Assembly (NCBI GenBank): GCA_007117885.1
Contig: SKFS01000057.1
Coordinates: 1 to 45,340 of the forward strand
DNA from: Candidatus Izemoplasma sp.
GTDB taxonomy: Bacteria; Bacillota_I; Bacilli_A; Izemoplasmatales; Izemoplasmataceae
Direction of reading: 5' to 3'
Length of the DNA stretch: 45,340 bases
Position 1 is the first letter of the stretch; every line of letters begins with the position of its first letter. Both the position numbers and the translations under genes were made by a program. Positions 2,973 through 40,609 of the stretch are shown here, one piece after another. The notes below the pieces were generated by a model. The model was not told where the DNA came from, ran no database searches, and was given only the letters and a program-made list of their open reading frames with translations.

Positions 2973-4254
2973 AAAGTTCAAAAATCATCGGTTTAAAGCT
3001 TAAGTACACTTTTCCCTCTTTAATTTCTATCGTCTTACCATCGATTAAGTTACGCACAGTTTTAGTCCCGGCATCAAGCGCAATGGGTCCACGACTTTTA
3101 GAGACATTAAAAATCCCTACCATGGTTCTTTCTTCTTTAGTATACTTACCAACCAAAGCACCATTCACTGCTTTTAAATCGAAGATTCCCTCAGCAAAAA
3201 TAGGATGGGTTGTAATCGTCTGTAGCCGTTTAATCAAACCACTAATATCTTTCCCTTCCCGAGATATTGTGTCTTTATTAAACAGATCTGGATGTTTGCT
3301 TGCACTAAACTCTCCACCGCTAAAAATCATCGTTGCACCTTTATTAAAGAAGCTAAACGCATGCCAGTTTTCAAGCAAATCTTCATCGCCATTAACGAAA
3401 CCTGCGATTCGACCAAAGTCATGGTTTTCTAAATTCCGCATTTTCACATAGTTTTTGGGATACATAACTTCTTGTCGCATTACAGCTTTAGCGTACTCTT
3501 CAAGGGAGCCTTCTGACTTCAAAAAGGCTTCAAACTCAGGATGAACATCATAGTCGTACGCTAAATCAAACACTTGATAAAGTTCGCATTCACTCAAACA
3601 TTCAAAACCAGTGTTGCGAATCAAACGAAGGAACTGCTCATGAACGGACTCACTAAGCCATAACGTATCAGGGTTTATCGTGTGAACTGCTTTATGGGCT
3701 TTCTTTAAGAAGTCAAGCGGTAGAAAACTCGAGACATCAAAACGGAACCCATCAACGCCTAATTTTGTCCAGTAGATTAAATTATCGATTAAGTATTTCC
3801 ATAAGCCTTCATCCCGCTGATAATCAAAATCGATAATATCCCACCATTCACCGACACGATTAGCGAAGTCATTCTCTTGATTCCGATAAAAGTACTCTGG
3901 ATGTTTCTGACGCAGTAACGAGTCTGGTGATGTGTGATTAAAAACAATATCCATCATTATTTTCATGCCTTTACCATGAACTTCGGCAATCAAGCGTTTA
4001 AAATCTTCTAATGTGCCCAGTTCAGGATTAATACCGTAATAATCCTTTATCGCATAGGGACTACCGAGTTTTCCCTTACGGTTTTCTTCACCAATCGGAT
4101 GGATTGGTAATAGATAAACGACATCCGTCCCTAAATCTTTAATGCGCTCTAAATCCTCGATTAAAGCATTAAACGTACCTTCTTCTGTATGGTTTCTCAC
4201 ATACACTTGATAAATCAGTAAGTGTCTTAAGTTAATTCTTGTATTTTTTCCCAT
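2971..4254 (-). CDS. Intracellular alpha-amylase family (GH13) glycoside hydrolase
   Basis: This 427-aa GH13 enzyme should cleave or transfer alpha-glucosidic linkages in maltodextrin-like substrates. The barrel motifs are present: DIVFNHTS (102-109), DGFRFDVSS with nucleophile D173, LWLSES with acid/base E202, and ENHD with the transition-state stabiliser D279. There is no signal peptide or membrane segment, so it acts in the cytoplasm. It is transcribed divergently from a LacI-type regulator, with a candidate operator at 4312-4326. A TATAAT (4272-4277, read on the minus strand) may be its -10, but I see no good -35. The exact substrate (maltodextrin, neopullulan, oligo-1,6-glucoside) cannot be read from sequence alone. 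Confidence 0.85.
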   Translation of the reverse strand: MGKNTRINLRHLLIYQVYVRNHTEEGTFNALIEDLERIKDLGTDVVYLLPIHPIGEENRKGKLGSPYAIKDYYGINPELGTLEDFKRLIAEVHGKGMKIMMDIVFNHTSPDSLLRQKHPEYFYRNQENDFANRVGEWWDIIDFDYQRDEGLWKYLIDNLIYWTKLGVDGFRFDVSSFLPLDFLKKAHKAVHTINPDTLWLSESVHEQFLRLIRNTGFECLSECELYQVFDLAYDYDVHPEFEAFLKSEGSLEEYAKAVMRQEVMYPKNYVKMRNLENHDFGRIAGFVNGDEDLLENWHAFSFFNKGATMIFSGGEFSASKHPDLFNKDTISREGKDISGLIKRLQTITTHPIFAEGIFDLKAVNGALVGKYTKEERTMVGIFNVSKSRGPIALDAGTKTVRNLIDGKTIEIKEGKVYLSFKPMIFEL

Positions 4255-4311
4255 TTTATCACCCAGTTCTTATTATACCGTAAATCGTCGAAGTCGCACG
4301 TAAAATCCATA

Positions 4312-4326
4312 GTTAACCGTTTTCAC
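4312..4326. promoter_or_regulatory. Candidate LacI/CcpA-family operator
   Basis: GTTAACCGTTTTCAC is an imperfect palindrome centred on CG. Read on the minus strand it fits the catabolite-responsive (cre) consensus at most positions. It lies 5 nt upstream of the -35 of the regulator gene and about 35 nt upstream of the -10 of the divergent GH13 gene, so it could control both. It may bind the adjacent regulator or CcpA. Call rests on pattern and position only. Confidence 0.45.
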
Positions 4327-4331
4327 AACGA

Positions 4332-4360
4332 TTTACAAAGTACACGCCATCGCATATAAT
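4332..4360 (+). promoter_or_regulatory. Sigma-A promoter of the LacI-type regulator
   Basis: TTTACA (4332-4337), a 17-nt spacer and a perfect TATAAT (4355-4360), followed by AAGGAG (4367-4372) nine nt before the ATG. Confidence 0.85.
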
Positions 4361-4381
4361 GATTTTAAGGAGCGTGATGAT

Positions 4382-5359
4382 ATGCCTACCATTAAAGATG
4401 TTGCGAAGAAAGCAAATGTCAGTGTTGCTACGGTTTCACGTGTTATTAATAATACTGGCTATGTGAATGAAGAAACACGTAAACTTGTTGAAGCCGCGAT
4501 TAAGGAACTCGAGTATATTCCTAATGAACTCGCCCGCTCACTTTTTAAAAAACAATCGAAAATTGTTGGACTCATCGTTCCTCACCTCTCAACGTATTTT
4601 TTTGCTGAACTCATCGAAGCATTAGAAGAAGCGCTCGCAAAAAAAGATTATAAACTCATGATATTTAACGCAAAGGACGACCCGATTCGTGAGCGTAAAT
4701 ACATGCAAGTCTTTAATCAGTATAATATCGATGGCATCGTTTTAGTAGCCCACACAGAACAATATAAGGATTATCTTGATTTACGCATTCCCATTATCAC
4801 CATTGACCATAAGTTAAATGATGCGATCCCCTCGATTACCTCAGACAATGAAATGGGTGGACGATTAGCCGCACAAAAGCTTGTTGAAACAGGGTGTAAA
4901 AAAGTCATCCATCTGCGGGGTCCAAGCTTTTTGATAACCGCTAAGAACCGCAATAAAGGCTTTAACTACATTATTGAGCAAGCCAACATTGAAATGCATA
5001 CAATGGACTTAGCCTTTGTCGATCCCGATCAAACTATGATTGAAAACTTCATTCGCAAGCACCTAGATGCCGATGGCATTTTTTGCAGCAGTGATGTGAT
5101 TGCCCTCCATGCTTTAAAAGCCCTCTACACATTAAAAAAGAAAGTCCCTGAAGAAATTCAAGTTATCGGTTACGATAATATTGAACTCTCTTTATTAGCA
5201 ACGCCTCCGCTAACAACGATTAATCAACCGATTAACGATCTCGCCACCGAAGCTTCAAACACATTACTAGAACTCATTGAGAAAAAAGAAATAACCGTGC
5301 TTCATAAAGTCTTACCCGTTTCTTTAGTCGAACGTGATTCAACTAAAAAAAATTCCTGA
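4382..5359 (+). CDS. LacI/GalR-family transcriptional regulator
   Basis: This 325-aa protein has the LacI-family helix-turn-helix at its N-terminus (TIKDVAKKANVSVATVSRVI, with the hinge-helix region around residues 48-60). A periplasmic-binding-protein-like sensor domain follows to the C-terminus. The divergent gene is a GH13 glucosidase, so a role in maltodextrin/alpha-glucoside control is likely (a MalR-like function), but CcpA-like global control is not excluded. The start is fixed by a strong promoter and AAGGAG. A bidirectional terminator follows directly. Confidence 0.88.
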   Translation: MPTIKDVAKKANVSVATVSRVINNTGYVNEETRKLVEAAIKELEYIPNELARSLFKKQSKIVGLIVPHLSTYFFAELIEALEEALAKKDYKLMIFNAKDDPIRERKYMQVFNQYNIDGIVLVAHTEQYKDYLDLRIPIITIDHKLNDAIPSITSDNEMGGRLAAQKLVETGCKKVIHLRGPSFLITAKNRNKGFNYIIEQANIEMHTMDLAFVDPDQTMIENFIRKHLDADGIFCSSDVIALHALKALYTLKKKVPEEIQVIGYDNIELSLLATPPLTTINQPINDLATEASNTLLELIEKKEITVLHKVLPVSLVERDSTKKNS

Positions 5360-24913: not shown

Positions 24914-24920
24914 TTTTACG

Positions 24921-25057
24921 AACTGTTAGGTGAGGCTCCTATACAGAAATACGCTACTGCCGAGAAACGTCGAAAGACGCCAATTGGTTGAACAGACTTA
25001 GCCGGATTAAGGCTTAGTATAATGTAGCTGGATTTCCTACGCTGTATAGTGCTAAAA
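24921..25057 (+). ncRNA. M-box (ykoK) magnesium riboswitch
   Basis: The leader has the M-box hallmarks: GTTAGGTGAGGCTCCTATACAG (24925 onward), GCTACTGCC, the CGTCGAAAGACG hairpin, CCAATTGGTTGAACAGA, and the closing GCTGTATAGTGCTAAAACTC. It senses Mg2+ and lies directly upstream of mgtE, its commonest target. When Mg2+ is abundant, the aptamer folds and favours the terminator at 25083-25110. When Mg2+ is low, AACGAAGG (25061-25068) can pair with CCTTCGTT (25084-25091) and disrupt that terminator. Confidence 0.93.
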
Positions 25058-25082
25058 CTCAACGAAGGGTACTTTTTTTGTG

Positions 25083-30272: not shown

Positions 30273-30301
30273 TTGTTATTTCCGTGATTTTCAAGTACAA
30301 T
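30273..30301 (+). promoter_or_regulatory. Sigma-A promoter of the guaA transcript
   Basis: TTGTTA (30273-30278), a 17-nt spacer and TACAAT (30296-30301), just upstream of the guanine riboswitch. Confidence 0.75.
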
Positions 30302-30308
30302 AAAGACA

Positions 30309-30381
30309 CGATTCATATAATGTCGATAATACGGTTCGAACGTCTCTACCCCACTACCTTAAATATTGGGACTATGAATGC
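30309..30381 (+). ncRNA. Guanine (purine) riboswitch
   Basis: The aptamer has the purine-riboswitch pattern: P1 ATTCATA (30311-30317) with TATGAAT (30373-30379), ATAATGTCGATAATACGGTT, the J2/3 core GTCTCTACC and the closing GGGACTATG. The ligand-contacting base in GACTATG is C, as in guanine riboswitches, rather than the U of adenine riboswitches; J2/3 has U at the position that is C in the 2'-deoxyguanosine class. It precedes guaA-guaB, so guanine should switch off GMP synthesis. Confidence 0.93.
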
Positions 30382-30398
30382 TTTTTTCAGCATTCATT

Positions 30399-35731: not shown

Positions 35732-35751
35732 AAAAAATAGTCAAAAAACGA

Positions 35752-35860
35752 CATCTTCTTTCATCTAGACTATAACTATCGGTTTTGGAATTTCACCAAA
35801 TCGTGCCTTCGGCTCGCGGACTATACCGCCGGTCGGGAATTTCACCCTGCCCTGAAGATT
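35752..35860 (-). ncRNA. FMN riboswitch (RFN element)
   Basis: Read on the minus strand the leader contains the RFN hallmarks in order: ATCTTCAGGGCAGGGTGAAATTCCC, ACCGGCGGTATAGTCCGCGAGC, GGTGAAATTCCAAAACCGATAGTTATAGTC and the closing GATGAAAGAAGAT. P1 joins 35854-35859 with 35752-35757. It binds FMN and shuts off transcription of ribU through the terminator at 35707-35731. Confidence 0.96.
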
Positions 35861-35875
35861 ATTCAATTCATTTGT

Positions 35876-35910: not shown

Positions 35911-36621
35911 CTATAAGAACCAACTCATAACTAAGTAATAAACAATAGGCACAAGTAAAGATGGCAACATATTAGCAACTTTGACCTGTTTGAGTTTCAT
36001 AAAATTAATCCCAATTCCAATAATAATAATGTTTCCTACCATCGATAAACTCGTCCACATCTCTGGTGTTAAAAAAGCATCCGCTTGAACAGCTAATAAG
36101 GTTATCGCTCCTTGATAAATTAAAACACTGATCGCAGCAAAAGCCACACCAACACCAAAAACTGTCGCTAACATCATCGCGGTCACAAAGTCGAGCATGC
36201 TTTTTAGCAGCAATAAAGTTAAATCCTGATGTACGACTTCATAGATAGGCCCTAAAATCGCCAACGCACCAACACAGAAAATCAACGTGCCTGCCACAAA
36301 GCCTTTAGCTAATGGCGGTAACTGATATTTATGTTCCACCCGTTCAGACAACCGAGTTATCTTACCATCGATATCCACTTTTGTGCCAATCAACGTGCCA
36401 ATGACTAACGAAGATAATACTAGGAGTTCTCCCGATGTTGAAAACCCGTCGGTCTCAAGCACTAAAAAATCACTTAAAAACCAGCCAAAGGCCAACACAA
36501 AAATAACTAATCCTAACACAAACATCAACGACTCTTTCAACGTCTCAGGAAGTCGCTTTTTGAACACTAGTCCAATAAATGTTGCAACCACAACCGCAAT
36601 GGCATTAATAATGGTCCCCAT
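35911..36621 (-). CDS. DUF554 family membrane protein
   Basis: This 236-aa protein has seven hydrophobic segments and the DUF554 (YqgA) pattern: N-terminal MGTIINAIAVVVATFIGLVFKK, then GTLIGTKVDIDGKITRLSERVE and FVAGTLIFCVGALAILGPI. The family is annotated as possible transporter but has no proven function. It ends with TAG just before the ribU promoter, with no terminator seen between, so read-through is possible. It lies 8 nt after ogt. Confidence 0.85.
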   Translation of the reverse strand: MGTIINAIAVVVATFIGLVFKKRLPETLKESLMFVLGLVIFVLAFGWFLSDFLVLETDGFSTSGELLVLSSLVIGTLIGTKVDIDGKITRLSERVEHKYQLPPLAKGFVAGTLIFCVGALAILGPIYEVVHQDLTLLLLKSMLDFVTAMMLATVFGVGVAFAAISVLIYQGAITLLAVQADAFLTPEMWTSLSMVGNIIIIGIGINFMKLKQVKVANMLPSLLVPIVYYLVMSWFL

Positions 36622-37145: not shown

Positions 37146-38330
37146 TTATTCTTGTTGCAATAATCGTTTCTCAGTTAACTGAATTAAACTTGCACCTAAC
37201 GGTGCTGTCACTAAGATAGCCAAAACAGAAATTGCCAATATAATTTCTCCACCAGGTACACCTAACGTTAAAGGAATTGATCCCATTGCAGCTTGCACAG
37301 TCGCTTTAGGAATAAATGCTATGAATAAAAAGGACTTTTCTCTCCATGTAAAATTTGTTCTCAATGTTGCAATAAAAACGCCAAATGACCGCGCTATTAA
37401 ACCAGAAAAAATCAAAATCAAACCGATCACTCCAGCATCTAAAGCCACAGTCACATCGACAGCCGCCCCAACTAAAACAAATAAGAAAAGTTCCGCTAAA
37501 ACCCATACCTTATCGAACTTAATCGCTAATCGTTCAGCCACAACTTTTCGGCGTTCAACAATGACCAGTCCTAAGGTCATCACACCTAAAAGCGAGGCAA
37601 TGTAAATATATTCTTCTATTTGCTCAGTAAAACTTACAAAAAGAATGCTAACCGCCAATAATATCAATATCTTTTTCGTGTCACGGATGCGAAACTTCGT
37701 AAATAGCCATACTAAGCCTACCCCAATCACAAATCCAATAAGGATTCCTAAGAGTATCGACAATGGTAAACTTAATACACTTAGCACAGCGAGGTTACTC
37801 GCCGTCACTGCAGCACTTAAAAACATCGAAAAAAGTGTAATCGCAATAACATCATCAATACTCGCTGAAGCGAGCACTAATGTTGGGATATGGCTTCTTG
37901 TACTTACCTTATCTCTAATGAGTTTTAACATCGCTGGGACGATCACAGCCGGTGAGACCGCAGCAATAACAAATCCCAACATGCCTCCTTGAATAAAACT
38001 AAACTCCAATAACCACATCGCCAGAAACAAAATCATTAACCCTTCAAAAACCACCGGAATCACACTCATCGTCCCGGCAACTTTACCAACCCTTTGAATC
38101 GCTCTGCGGTTCAATCCGAGTCCTGCTCTAAGTAAAATAATAATCAGTGCAATCTTTCGTAAATCCCCAGAAATGGCTAAAAGACTCTCACTTAACAAAT
38201 CAAACCCTTGTGGGCCAATAACAATCCCGACCAACAACATACCTATAAGACCGGGGAGTTTGATCGCTTTAAAAAGTATGTGTCCTAACATGCCGAATAA
38301 AATTAAGTAAGCTAAACTTAACATCATCAT
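37146..38330 (-). CDS. Cation/proton antiporter (CPA family) under fluoride control
   Basis: This approximately 394-aa membrane protein has 12-13 helices. Family features are LPGLIGMLLVGIVIGP (TM2), the interrupted-helix block AAVSPAVIVPAMLKL and the core helix SASIDDVIAITLFSMF, with the ID-D acidic pair of CPA-type exchangers. The start is ATG at 38330 behind GGAGG. A fluoride riboswitch lies in its 5' leader, so it is expected to help fluoride tolerance, as antiporters in other fluoride-riboswitch operons are thought to do. The ions exchanged (Na+, K+, F-?) are not known. Confidence 0.87.
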   Translation of the reverse strand: MMMLSLAYLILFGMLGHILFKAIKLPGLIGMLLVGIVIGPQGFDLLSESLLAISGDLRKIALIIILLRAGLGLNRRAIQRVGKVAGTMSVIPVVFEGLMILFLAMWLLEFSFIQGGMLGFVIAAVSPAVIVPAMLKLIRDKVSTRSHIPTLVLASASIDDVIAITLFSMFLSAAVTASNLAVLSVLSLPLSILLGILIGFVIGVGLVWLFTKFRIRDTKKILILLAVSILFVSFTEQIEEYIYIASLLGVMTLGLVIVERRKVVAERLAIKFDKVWVLAELFLFVLVGAAVDVTVALDAGVIGLILIFSGLIARSFGVFIATLRTNFTWREKSFLFIAFIPKATVQAAMGSIPLTLGVPGGEIILAISVLAILVTAPLGASLIQLTEKRLLQQE

Positions 38331-38349
38331 GGTTCCCTCCAATAAAAAA

Positions 38350-38383
38350 ACTCCTGTCCACGCGTAAAAACGTTAACAGGAGT
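38350..38383 (-). terminator. Regulated terminator of the fluoride riboswitch
   Basis: ACTCCTGT (minus strand, 38383-38376) pairs with ACAGGAGT (38357-38350), followed by seven T. The 5' arm is also the 3' end of the aptamer, so ligand binding and termination exclude each other: fluoride should turn the gene on. Confidence 0.88.
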
Positions 38384-38420
38384 CATCAGCATTTGCGGTT
38401 ATCGGTGAACTCCATCACCA
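38378..38420 (-). ncRNA. Fluoride riboswitch (crcB motif)
   Basis: On the minus strand, GGTGATGGAGTTCACC, then ATAACCGCAAATGC and TGATGACTCCT match the crcB motif: the hairpin with GATGG-GTTC, the short pseudoknotted middle and the highly conserved TGATGACTCCT end. The aptamer overlaps the terminator, and the gene behind it is a cation/proton antiporter. Confidence 0.92.
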
Positions 38421-38428
38421 TCTTAACC

Positions 38429-38457
38429 ATTATAACAAGCGCCTTTCCGATAATCAA
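38429..38457 (-). promoter_or_regulatory. Sigma-A promoter of the fluoride riboswitch transcript
   Basis: On the minus strand: TTGATT (38452-38457), a 17-nt spacer and TATAAT (38429-38434), directly downstream of the heliorhodopsin stop codon. Confidence 0.8.
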
Positions 38458-38469
38458 TACCTAATTGAA

Positions 38470-39297
38470 TTAAGGTTGGAATGCGCCAAAGAGTACAAGC
38501 CAAGTTAAAATCGTTTTTGCGACCAACGATAAAATAATATAGCCGCGCTCACCATACAGATAGTTTTTAAACTTACCAATCCCTTTATACTGTAAAAACA
38601 TATTAACAGGGAAGGTGTTAAAGGCTAGGAAGTACGTAACAAGTATCGCCCATACAAAGCCAGGAACTGCATCTAAGTTTGGATTGACACCAATATAAAA
38701 AGCAATCGCTACCCATGGTGCAAGTCCAATAATTGAACCAAAAATAAACGGTAACCAATTTGTTTTCTTCTCTGTTTTATCGGTCCCAGCATTAAGTAGC
38801 TCCATATCTAAACCAAATAGATTCATCGCTGCATTTGCGAGTGCGATTAAGGCAAATACTGCAATATCACGAACACCAAACAATGAAGAAATCAAAACAA
38901 TCATTAACGATGAACTCAGTGCATACTCATACCAACGTAGTTTGTTGATGCCTTGCTTTAAATCATCCACGTACTTCTTCTTGTAAGGCACAGCAATAAT
39001 AAAATGGAAAATACCTGAAATAAGTAAGAAACTCGCCGTTAACGGTAAAAACGGTAATTGAAATAGTGTATCGGTTGTCGTTAAAACTAGCCCTTCACCT
39101 TGAACAAATTCTAAGTAATTCCCCACAACTGGAATGGTAAACGTTTGCGTCCCTGTTCCATCTAAGTTCGGGTAAATTAAAAACGCAAAGAGCATCATGA
39201 GTGTCCCTTGAATTAAGTGGACCGTCCCCATAATCTTGTTAAAACGTATTAAACTTGGAAATGATAACTTGTCTTTTTTGACAACTTCAGTGGCCAT
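38470..39297 (-). CDS. Heliorhodopsin
   Basis: This 275-aa seven-helix protein matches the heliorhodopsin family of retinal proteins, whose N-terminus faces the cytoplasm. RWYEYALSSSLMIVLIS (121-137) is the helix-C motif, with E124 as the Schiff-base counterion. YGERGYIILSLVAKTILTW (248-266) is helix G, with K261 as the retinal-binding lysine. FNTFPVNMFLQYKGIGKFKNY (226-246) is the conserved F-G region, and a long AB loop (about 42-80) is present as expected. The family is thought to sense light or regulate partners rather than pump ions. AAGGAG precedes the ATG. No retinal synthesis gene is in the window, so retinal must come from elsewhere. Confidence 0.93.
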   Translation of the reverse strand: MATEVVKKDKLSFPSLIRFNKIMGTVHLIQGTLMMLFAFLIYPNLDGTGTQTFTIPVVGNYLEFVQGEGLVLTTTDTLFQLPFLPLTASFLLISGIFHFIIAVPYKKKYVDDLKQGINKLRWYEYALSSSLMIVLISSLFGVRDIAVFALIALANAAMNLFGLDMELLNAGTDKTEKKTNWLPFIFGSIIGLAPWVAIAFYIGVNPNLDAVPGFVWAILVTYFLAFNTFPVNMFLQYKGIGKFKNYLYGERGYIILSLVAKTILTWLVLFGAFQP

Positions 39298-39390
39298 ATT
39301 TTCACTCCTTATGAATTTTTATGTGATTAGCTTCATTATATCATTGACCATTTTAAAACATCGGTTAAATACACTTTAAATTATAAAAAA

Positions 39391-39411
39391 GGATGATTGC
39401 ATCAATCATCC
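39391..39411 (-). terminator. Terminator of the CPBP protease/small membrane protein pair
   Basis: A perfect 9-bp stem (39391-39399 with 39403-39411) and 3-nt loop has six T on the minus strand. Confidence 0.87.
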
Positions 39412-39435: not shown

Positions 39436-39771
39436 TTAACGATCTTGTTTGACATAGAGAAAAAGATAGGCTTCGATAAGAACACCATAGACAATCCCGG
39501 CAATAAAACTAACGGCGTCTTCAAACCCTGTTGAGCTATAAAAAGCAAAGGACACCAATAATCCGAGTACTGCACCTCGTAAAAGTGCGTTTTTTCTTTG
39601 AGATAATGGCCAAAATGCACCAATAACTAATCCCATAATCACACGATTATACCAAAGTGAAAAAACAAAGTCCGGTGAGGCTGTAAACCCCGATCGAACT
39701 GAAGCACCCACGACACAAATAACACCGAGTACTGCACCAGCAATCAATGCATGAACAATTCTTTTAGTCAT
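39436..39771 (-). CDS. Small four-helix membrane protein, function unknown
   Basis: This approximately 111-aa protein has four hydrophobic segments and small polar loops (GASVRSGFTASPDF, PLSQRKNALLRG); I recognise no family. I chose the ATG at 39771, 4 nt after the CPBP protease stop. An earlier ATG (39792) that overlaps that gene by 17 nt is also possible. The two genes are probably co-transcribed and end at the terminator at 39391-39411. Confidence 0.6.
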   Translation of the reverse strand: MTKRIVHALIAGAVLGVICVVGASVRSGFTASPDFVFSLWYNRVIMGLVIGAFWPLSQRKNALLRGAVLGLLVSFAFYSSTGFEDAVSFIAGIVYGVLIEAYLFLYVKQDR

Positions 39772-39775
39772 TTCA

Positions 39776-40609
39776 TCACGCTTCTTCCTCATCGAGCGTG
39801 TACTTTATTGGCTGATACTCATCACGATCATCGTCAACCTGTCCAACGGTTTTCTTAATTTGCCATAAGCCAATAGGTACAAGTAAAATTAAACCATAAC
39901 TCAAAACGATAAACCATGTTTCTTCAAAAACGGCTTCAGGAATTAAAACCGACAATGAAGCAAACGCATTGTTCCCAAAATGCATCGCAATCGGTACCCA
40001 TATAGATTTAGTCCAATAAAACCCTAGCGCATAAATAATCCCAATCGCTGAGGCAAAAACCCCTTGAACAATGTTTAAGTGAAAAAGACCGAAAAATAAG
40101 CCGCTTAATAGAATAATAACCCAAGGACGCATATTCGTCTTTTCAAACCAACGAAAAAACATGCCTCTAAAAGCAATCTCTTCAACTAGCGGCGCCATTA
40201 AAGCCACCGCAAGAAAACTTAGCCACAAATCAGCGCCACCAATACTAGCTTCAATGGCTTCAATGTAAGACTGTACCGCTTCAGGAAACAAAAACTCGAC
40301 AAAATGAATGAGCAACACGCTGATGTTAATTCCCGCAAAACCAACAATCAGTGCCCAAAATAACACATAGGGTTTCACCTTTTTAAAGCGCATATGGCGG
40401 ACAAATCCAGGTTGATAGATAATCAAGATACCCAGAAAGATAATCACTTGTGTCGCAAGCAACGTTAAGGTGATATTGTTTGCTGATACTTCAGCAGGAT
40501 CTTCAACACCCAAAGCGATAAACAGAACTACCGTGATGATTACATTAACGATTAAGTAAAGTAAAATAAAGCCTAACGTTTTACCAATAGGTTTACTATA
40601 TTGCTTCAT
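39776..40609 (-). CDS. CPBP-family intramembrane metalloprotease
   Basis: This 277-aa membrane protein has the three CPBP (Rce1-like, Abi) motifs: EEIAFRG (EExxxR), FFGLFHL (FxxxH) and HFGNNAFASL (HxxxN). Bacterial members process peptides or take part in bacteriocin immunity and stress signalling; the substrate here is unknown. The C-terminal tail is acidic (DDDRDEYQ, DEEEA). A TATAAT on the minus strand about 20 nt upstream of the RBS (GGAGG) may be its -10. Confidence 0.87.
   Translation of the reverse strand: MKQYSKPIGKTLGFILLYLIVNVIITVVLFIALGVEDPAEVSANNITLTLLATQVIIFLGILIIYQPGFVRHMRFKKVKPYVLFWALIVGFAGINISVLLIHFVEFLFPEAVQSYIEAIEASIGGADLWLSFLAVALMAPLVEEIAFRGMFFRWFEKTNMRPWVIILLSGLFFGLFHLNIVQGVFASAIGIIYALGFYWTKSIWVPIAMHFGNNAFASLSVLIPEAVFEETWFIVLSYGLILLVPIGLWQIKKTVGQVDDDRDEYQPIKYTLDEEEA

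Follow-up and report, generated by a model that had tools for sequence, protein, structure and literature searches.

Heliorhodopsin genes and a fluoride-controlled antiporter form a recurrent gene order in bacteria of the Ca. Izimaplasma group. In the window, a stretch of 45,340 nucleotides from one such bacterium, an intact heliorhodopsin (HeR) gene is followed on the same strand by a fluoride riboswitch and the gene of an NHA-type cation/proton antiporter, and the same three-part order is found in 13 genomes of five genera (g1, g7, g12, g14, and g16) among 150 surveyed relatives, 65 of which have HeR and 53 a fluoride riboswitch. This strengthens the hunch of the first-pass annotation that the antiporter would be an informative neighbour for a protein family of unsettled function. 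We tentatively propose, with slightly less than an even chance of being right, that HeR is kept directly upstream of the fluoride-induced antiporter as its light-dependent regulatory partner. The choice between light-sensing coupling to this antiporter and conserved gene order stands at about even.

The heliorhodopsin gene

The HeR open reading frame begins with ATG preceded by AAGGAG. Its product matches the Pfam family Heliorhodopsin over positions 1–241 of the 242 in the profile (PF18761; E=2e-84; 283 bits, cut-off 26.7), as well as NCBIfam NF038020 (262 bits, cut-off 100); this profile search had been named as a check when the gene was first described as a heliorhodopsin with all diagnostic residues intact. 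Heliorhodopsins in the PDB match the protein with E values of 1e-49 to 3e-43, and its counterion E124 and Schiff-base lysine K261 align with those of the solved HeRs. Among 75 aligned HeRs, E124 is invariant (75/75) and K261 is present in 74, the remaining one having a gap at this site; for H27, H98, R121, W122, Y125, and S130, conservation holds in 74 or 75 sequences, H27 and H98 being the conserved histidines of helices A and B, both present in the window HeR. Family assignment and residues are thus both borne out, and, as far as a sequence can tell, the gene certainly encodes a bona fide, intact heliorhodopsin. Heliorhodopsins have an inverted topology with the N terminus inside, which is assumed for the window HeR as well.

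Comparison with the HeR of the congener gives a pN of 0.078 at a pS of 0.69, with synonymous sites nearly saturated; because of this ratio, the window HeR is judged to be under strong purifying selection. In the HeR tree, the window and congener HeRs belong to a distinct subtype (10 rows, 100/100 support, stem length 1.16), which is 77–91% identical internally and 54–57% identical to other linked HeRs and HeRs of its own family. The subtype also occurs in several MAGs of Bacillota and in Tenericutes bacterium MO-XQ (L180, L182–L192, L195, and L196), and it stands under much tighter constraint than the remaining HeRs of the order (pN 0.065–0.17 versus 0.14–0.28), synonymous sites being saturated throughout. 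Identities of 86–91% across families could hint at recent horizontal transfer of this HeR type, which is an unneeded explanation, as strong constraint explains these values at least equally well given the saturated synonymous sites (pS 0.69–0.89). A virus or plasmid as carrier was also rejected: two weak viral-contig matches come without neighbour genes, and two plasmid matches are at 44–51%. One of these two plasmid matches is predicted to be mobilizable; an HeR gene is located at 4149–4931 of NZ_CP141705.1, a 10.5-kb Lactococcus petauri plasmid.

More than one HeR can occur in a genome of this group. The genome of the window contains a second, quite different HeR (L042, G000:C15, 7268–7916), which a contig end cuts before the lysine. 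In genus g4 (L036 and L040), HeRs of two subtypes share one strand at a distance of ~3 kb; a polyprenyl synthetase gene is placed between them on the opposite strand.

Layout of the region and the fluoride gate

The 118-aa gene upstream ends in an intrinsic terminator, so that HeR opens a unit of its own (Table 1). Downstream, the first-pass annotation had placed the same-strand promoter of the riboswitch transcript 12 nt past HeR, had seen no terminator between, and had suggested that HeR and the antiporter share some transcription. The distance is correct: TTGATT (38457–38452) and TATAAT (38434–38429) are separated by a 17-nt spacer, TG precedes the second box, and the RF01734 aptamer follows. 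Between the HeR stop codon and this promoter, the window has neither a terminator nor room for one, and the riboswitch terminator is therefore the first that HeR transcripts meet. This terminator overlaps the aptamer 3′ end, and the 85-nt stretch folds at z=-3.8. As it stands between HeR and the antiporter open reading frame, any shared transcription of the two genes must pass the fluoride gate. The earlier description accordingly holds up to the promoter, beyond which the intrinsic terminator of the riboswitch separates HeR from the antiporter; shared transcription is possible as read-through of that terminator only, the antiporter having its own promoter before the riboswitch. Given how riboswitches of this class are known to operate, read-through from HeR into the antiporter should be fluoride-gated.

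Table 1. Annotated features around the heliorhodopsin gene (positions in the window)
Feature	Position	Strand	Basis
DUF554 membrane protein	35911..36621	-	Pfam, neighbourhoods
O6-methylguanine-DNA methyltransferase, next downstream of antiporter; likewise in congener L032	36630..37097	-	Pfam, neighbourhoods
NHA2/SLC9B-like cation/proton antiporter, DD motif	37146..38330	-	ORF list, Pfam, PDB match, alignment
Riboswitch terminator, stem then T run; first terminator downstream of HeR	38349..38384	-	Sequence, folding
Fluoride riboswitch aptamer RF01734, 52.5 bits (gathering score 34)	38370..38428	-	Covariance model
Sigma-70 promoter of riboswitch transcript, TTGATT-17-TATAAT, 12 nt past HeR stop	38429..38457	-	Promoter scan
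Heliorhodopsin (HeR) gene, 275 aa	38470..39297	-	ORF list, Pfam, NCBIfam, PDB, alignment
HeR ribosome-binding site AGGAG	39305-39309	-	Sequence reading
TATAAT-like -10 of probable HeR promoter, weak -35	39335..39340	-	Sequence reading, inferred; below promoter scan threshold
Intrinsic terminator after upstream 118-aa gene	39391..39411	-	Terminator scan, folding
118-aa four-helix membrane protein, recurrent HeR neighbour	39436..39792	-	Profile, neighbourhood and fold searches

The window also contains M-box magnesium, purine, and FMN riboswitches (24915–25077 and 30293–30394 on the plus strand, 35749–35863 on the minus strand), the FMN riboswitch preceding the gene for an ECF transporter substrate-binding component.

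The antiporter

The likely start of the antiporter is the ATG at 38330, which follows GGAGGG; the mechanical open reading frame starts at TTG 38342. The protein matches PF00999 (Na_H_Exchanger; E=2e-42), and its nearest solved relatives are structures of mammalian NHA2 (SLC9B2; 7b4l, E=4e-39). Paired aspartates are present in all 44 antiporter sequences covering the site, and in CPA2-type antiporters this DD motif goes with electrogenic exchange. The original label of fluoride-controlled antiporter is right in that the riboswitch precedes such a gene, and is to be specified as a DD-motif, NHA2/SLC9B-like protein. Sodium/proton antiporters are the next commonest target class of fluoride riboswitches after fluoride exporters (review, PMC11139923). 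In the 53 relatives with fluoride riboswitches, nearly all of these precede an antiporter of this kind, with or without HeR, which makes antiporter and riboswitch the older unit.

Recurrence of the gene order among relatives

The linked genomes are G000 (the window), G001, G007, G012, G014, G016, G023, G028, G030, G031, G035, G037, and G038. The G023 locus was joined from two contigs that share an exact overlap of 104 nt; the G007 contig breaks off soon after the antiporter start, leaving a fragment that is hence absent from the antiporter tree. A 14th genome (G045) carries a relic, in which 20 nt of an HeR 3′ end (FGAFQP and stop) stand before the riboswitch and antiporter; its nucleotide similarity to congener L032 extends from the last HeR codons through riboswitch and antiporter, and an unrelated gene lies upstream.

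Every linked locus has the antiporter as the gene immediately following HeR (+1). The interval from HeR stop to aptamer is 15–44 nt in all of them, and a -10 box immediately precedes the aptamer, so that no separate HeR terminator fits. Where HeR is missing, other genes adjoin the riboswitch equally closely upstream, so that close spacing does not set HeR apart.

The pairing has a limited range. Window-type HeRs in other genomes do not stand beside an antiporter, and outside the family of the window organism none of the fetched loci (80 named HeR loci from the genome collection) has an antiporter beside HeR, leading to rejection of the pairing as a general HeR trait. A search with the antiporter profile over all HeR loci examined yielded only two other antiporters, neither adjacent to HeR.

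The 118-aa protein encoded upstream has no Pfam or NCBIfam match, and structure and fold searches gave no significant match (best E 0.12), with weak Tim17-like matches only. It is found in 33 of the 150 relatives at E<=0.001; its gene precedes HeR on the same strand in G017, G020, G029, and G032 as well, and an Anaerolineaceae MAG (L210, ~66% identical) has it close to HeR. The DUF554 gene, which in the window lies on the other side of the antiporter, is directly upstream of HeR in L060, L065, L067, L070, and L071. In the sister family, at loci that include L084, L092, L097, L098, L100, and L101, HeR runs antisense to a block made up of DUF2177, class II photolyase, DUF1295, and a DegV/DAK2 protein.

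Functional coupling or inherited gene order

We hypothesize that light controls the antiporter through HeR. HeR would be a retinal-binding photosensor, made constitutively from its own promoter and probably supplied with chromophore from outside the cell, and would act as a membrane protein that regulates, in response to light, either the antiporter itself or the homeostasis of pH and sodium that the antiporter serves. Regulation would take place via contact in the membrane, by analogy with the pairs of HeR and ABC transporter, HeR and glutamine synthetase, and HeR and photolyase, which count as precedents for functional coupling (PMC11109279; PMC9529153; PMC9769723). Most antiporter production would start from the promoter next to the HeR stop codon, once fluoride releases the riboswitch terminator; HeR transcripts would end at that terminator without fluoride and read on into the antiporter with fluoride. 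A stronger version, in which HeR directly modulates the electrogenic NHA-type antiporter and the two constitute a light- and fluoride-responsive homeostasis module of saline, alkaline, and fluoride-exposed bacteria, is rather unlikely. Several points count against coupling, among them that the recurrence is largely in one family, is in part plain descent, and may represent one ancestral gene order.

This leads to the foremost alternative, to which we assign a substantial probability, still somewhat below one half: HeR and the riboswitch–antiporter unit became adjacent a single time, in the ancestor of these genera, and were kept by descent without coupling, HeR alleles being swapped by recombination. 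In the antiporter tree, all linked antiporters fall in one clade of 22 (support 97/96; 12 of the 22 linked) and largely follow the genera, in support of this alternative. The other 10 antiporters of this clade have no adjacent HeR, riboswitch–antiporter pairs without HeR occur throughout the class, and several genomes have independently lost HeR or the antiporter. Near the slot, genes for serine dehydratase, an RlmCD-like protein, and the endonuclease family are likewise kept, and the usual order in most linked genera is serine dehydratase, RlmCD-like, HeR, riboswitch, antiporter.

The observation that the antiporter is always the gene immediately next to HeR is less easily reconciled with descent alone, as is the history of HeR itself. 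Linked HeRs occur in several places of the HeR tree, with 7 label changes, at least 5 of which are forced by well-supported branches. The gene before HeR varies, being DUF554 in g14, a different RlmCD-like gene in congener L032, and the 118-aa gene in the window, and in g1 the unit persists with a different HeR subtype and with different genes on either side. The three-part unit thus survived the replacement of one HeR lineage by another as well as altered flanks, and its persistence favours, without proving, selection for adjacency.

Adjacency might instead be a matter of transcriptional convenience, in which HeR borrows the riboswitch terminator at a place that is cheap to keep and acts elsewhere, for example with DNA repair or stress genes. 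The short stop-to-aptamer spacing and the lack of any other terminator fit this explanation, as do the HeRs of the sister family, which stand beside genes for class II photolyase (E ~1e-63 to solved photolyases), DUF2177, and DUF1295, as in the published partner set (PMC11109279; PMC9769723). However, convenience alone does not explain how distinct HeR lineages reached the slot, and genes other than HeR also precede the riboswitch; we regard this explanation as improbable. Less probable still is that HeR is a light-driven ion conductor like giant-virus V2HeR3, its proton or sodium flux balanced by a neighbour that exchanges cations for protons: PMC9448325 reports that one viral HeR carries protons in light, but it describes a viral HeR and calls the general function of HeRs unknown.

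The organism and its source of retinal

The window genome (G000) comprises 1.75 Mb in 167 contigs and is 90% complete; its placement within the Ca. Izimaplasma group agrees with the low-GC monoderm host first suggested. Congener G001 matches record SKIW01000041.1 of Candidatus Izimaplasma bacterium CSBr16_77, and MAG records from soda lakes, labelled CSSed, B1Sed10, and T1Sed10, are among the matches of the linked genomes. CSBr16 and CSSed16 presumably refer to the same soda lakes as B1Sed10 and CSSed10. Fluoride is high in soda lakes. The labels B1Sed10 and CSSed10 denote sediment metagenomes of hypersaline soda lakes (PMC6146748).

The window itself holds no retinal biosynthesis gene, as had been noted from the start. 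A search for blh and crtI/crtY in the genome, which had also been advised, was positive for crtI: a CrtI-family gene and a phytoene-synthase-like crtB adjoin each other. It was negative for the remainder, as neither BCD/Blh nor RPE65 nor a lycopene cyclase scored above cut-off in the window genome. Among the 150 relatives, including the 65 with HeR, none has BCD above cut-off, an absence that is not fully controlled since BCD control genomes are equally silent. Synthesis of retinal via Blh/BCD, RPE65, or lycopene cyclase was rejected on these grounds, with the same reservation for BCD, and the gene content points to uptake or an unknown route as the likely source.

Comparison with known heliorhodopsin and riboswitch systems

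Heliorhodopsins occur widely but have no settled function, and advances so far have come via the testing of neighbours. A partner that persists beside HeR through rearrangements and in several HeR lineages, with the layout unchanged, offers a hypothesis that is specific and inexpensive, namely that light controls an ion antiporter; published neighbour surveys do not list it (PMC11109279; PMC8612252). None of the ten groups of HeR neighbours sorted in PMC11109279 contains an antiporter. PMC8612252 counted only same-strand HeR neighbours less than 10 bp away; as ~139 nt, including promoter and riboswitch, lie between the HeR stop and the antiporter ATG in the window, this layout fails the limit and that survey would have missed it. 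A literature search, subscription papers, preprints, and supplementary tables aside, found no paper on the pairing, and the conserved neighbourhood is apparently unreported.

Within the heliorhodopsin family (PF18761, NF038020; solved 6is6, 6su3, and 9vfc), the window HeR is a full-length match with all key residues, and differs in belonging to a separate, strongly constrained Bacillota subtype. HeR neighbours in the sister family agree with published groups (PMC11109279). The linked loci resemble OcHeR–OmrDE ABC transporter (PMC11109279), AbHeR–glutamine synthetase (PMC9529153), and TfHeR–photolyase (PMC9769723) in that HeR is next to a partner gene that it possibly regulates; unlike in those pairs, the partner in the window is a cation/proton antiporter with its own promoter, and a fluoride riboswitch lies between. 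With known RF01734–antiporter systems (PMC11139923), the window shares riboswitch and antiporter, and it differs from them in having a putative photosensor gene directly upstream that reads into the riboswitch.
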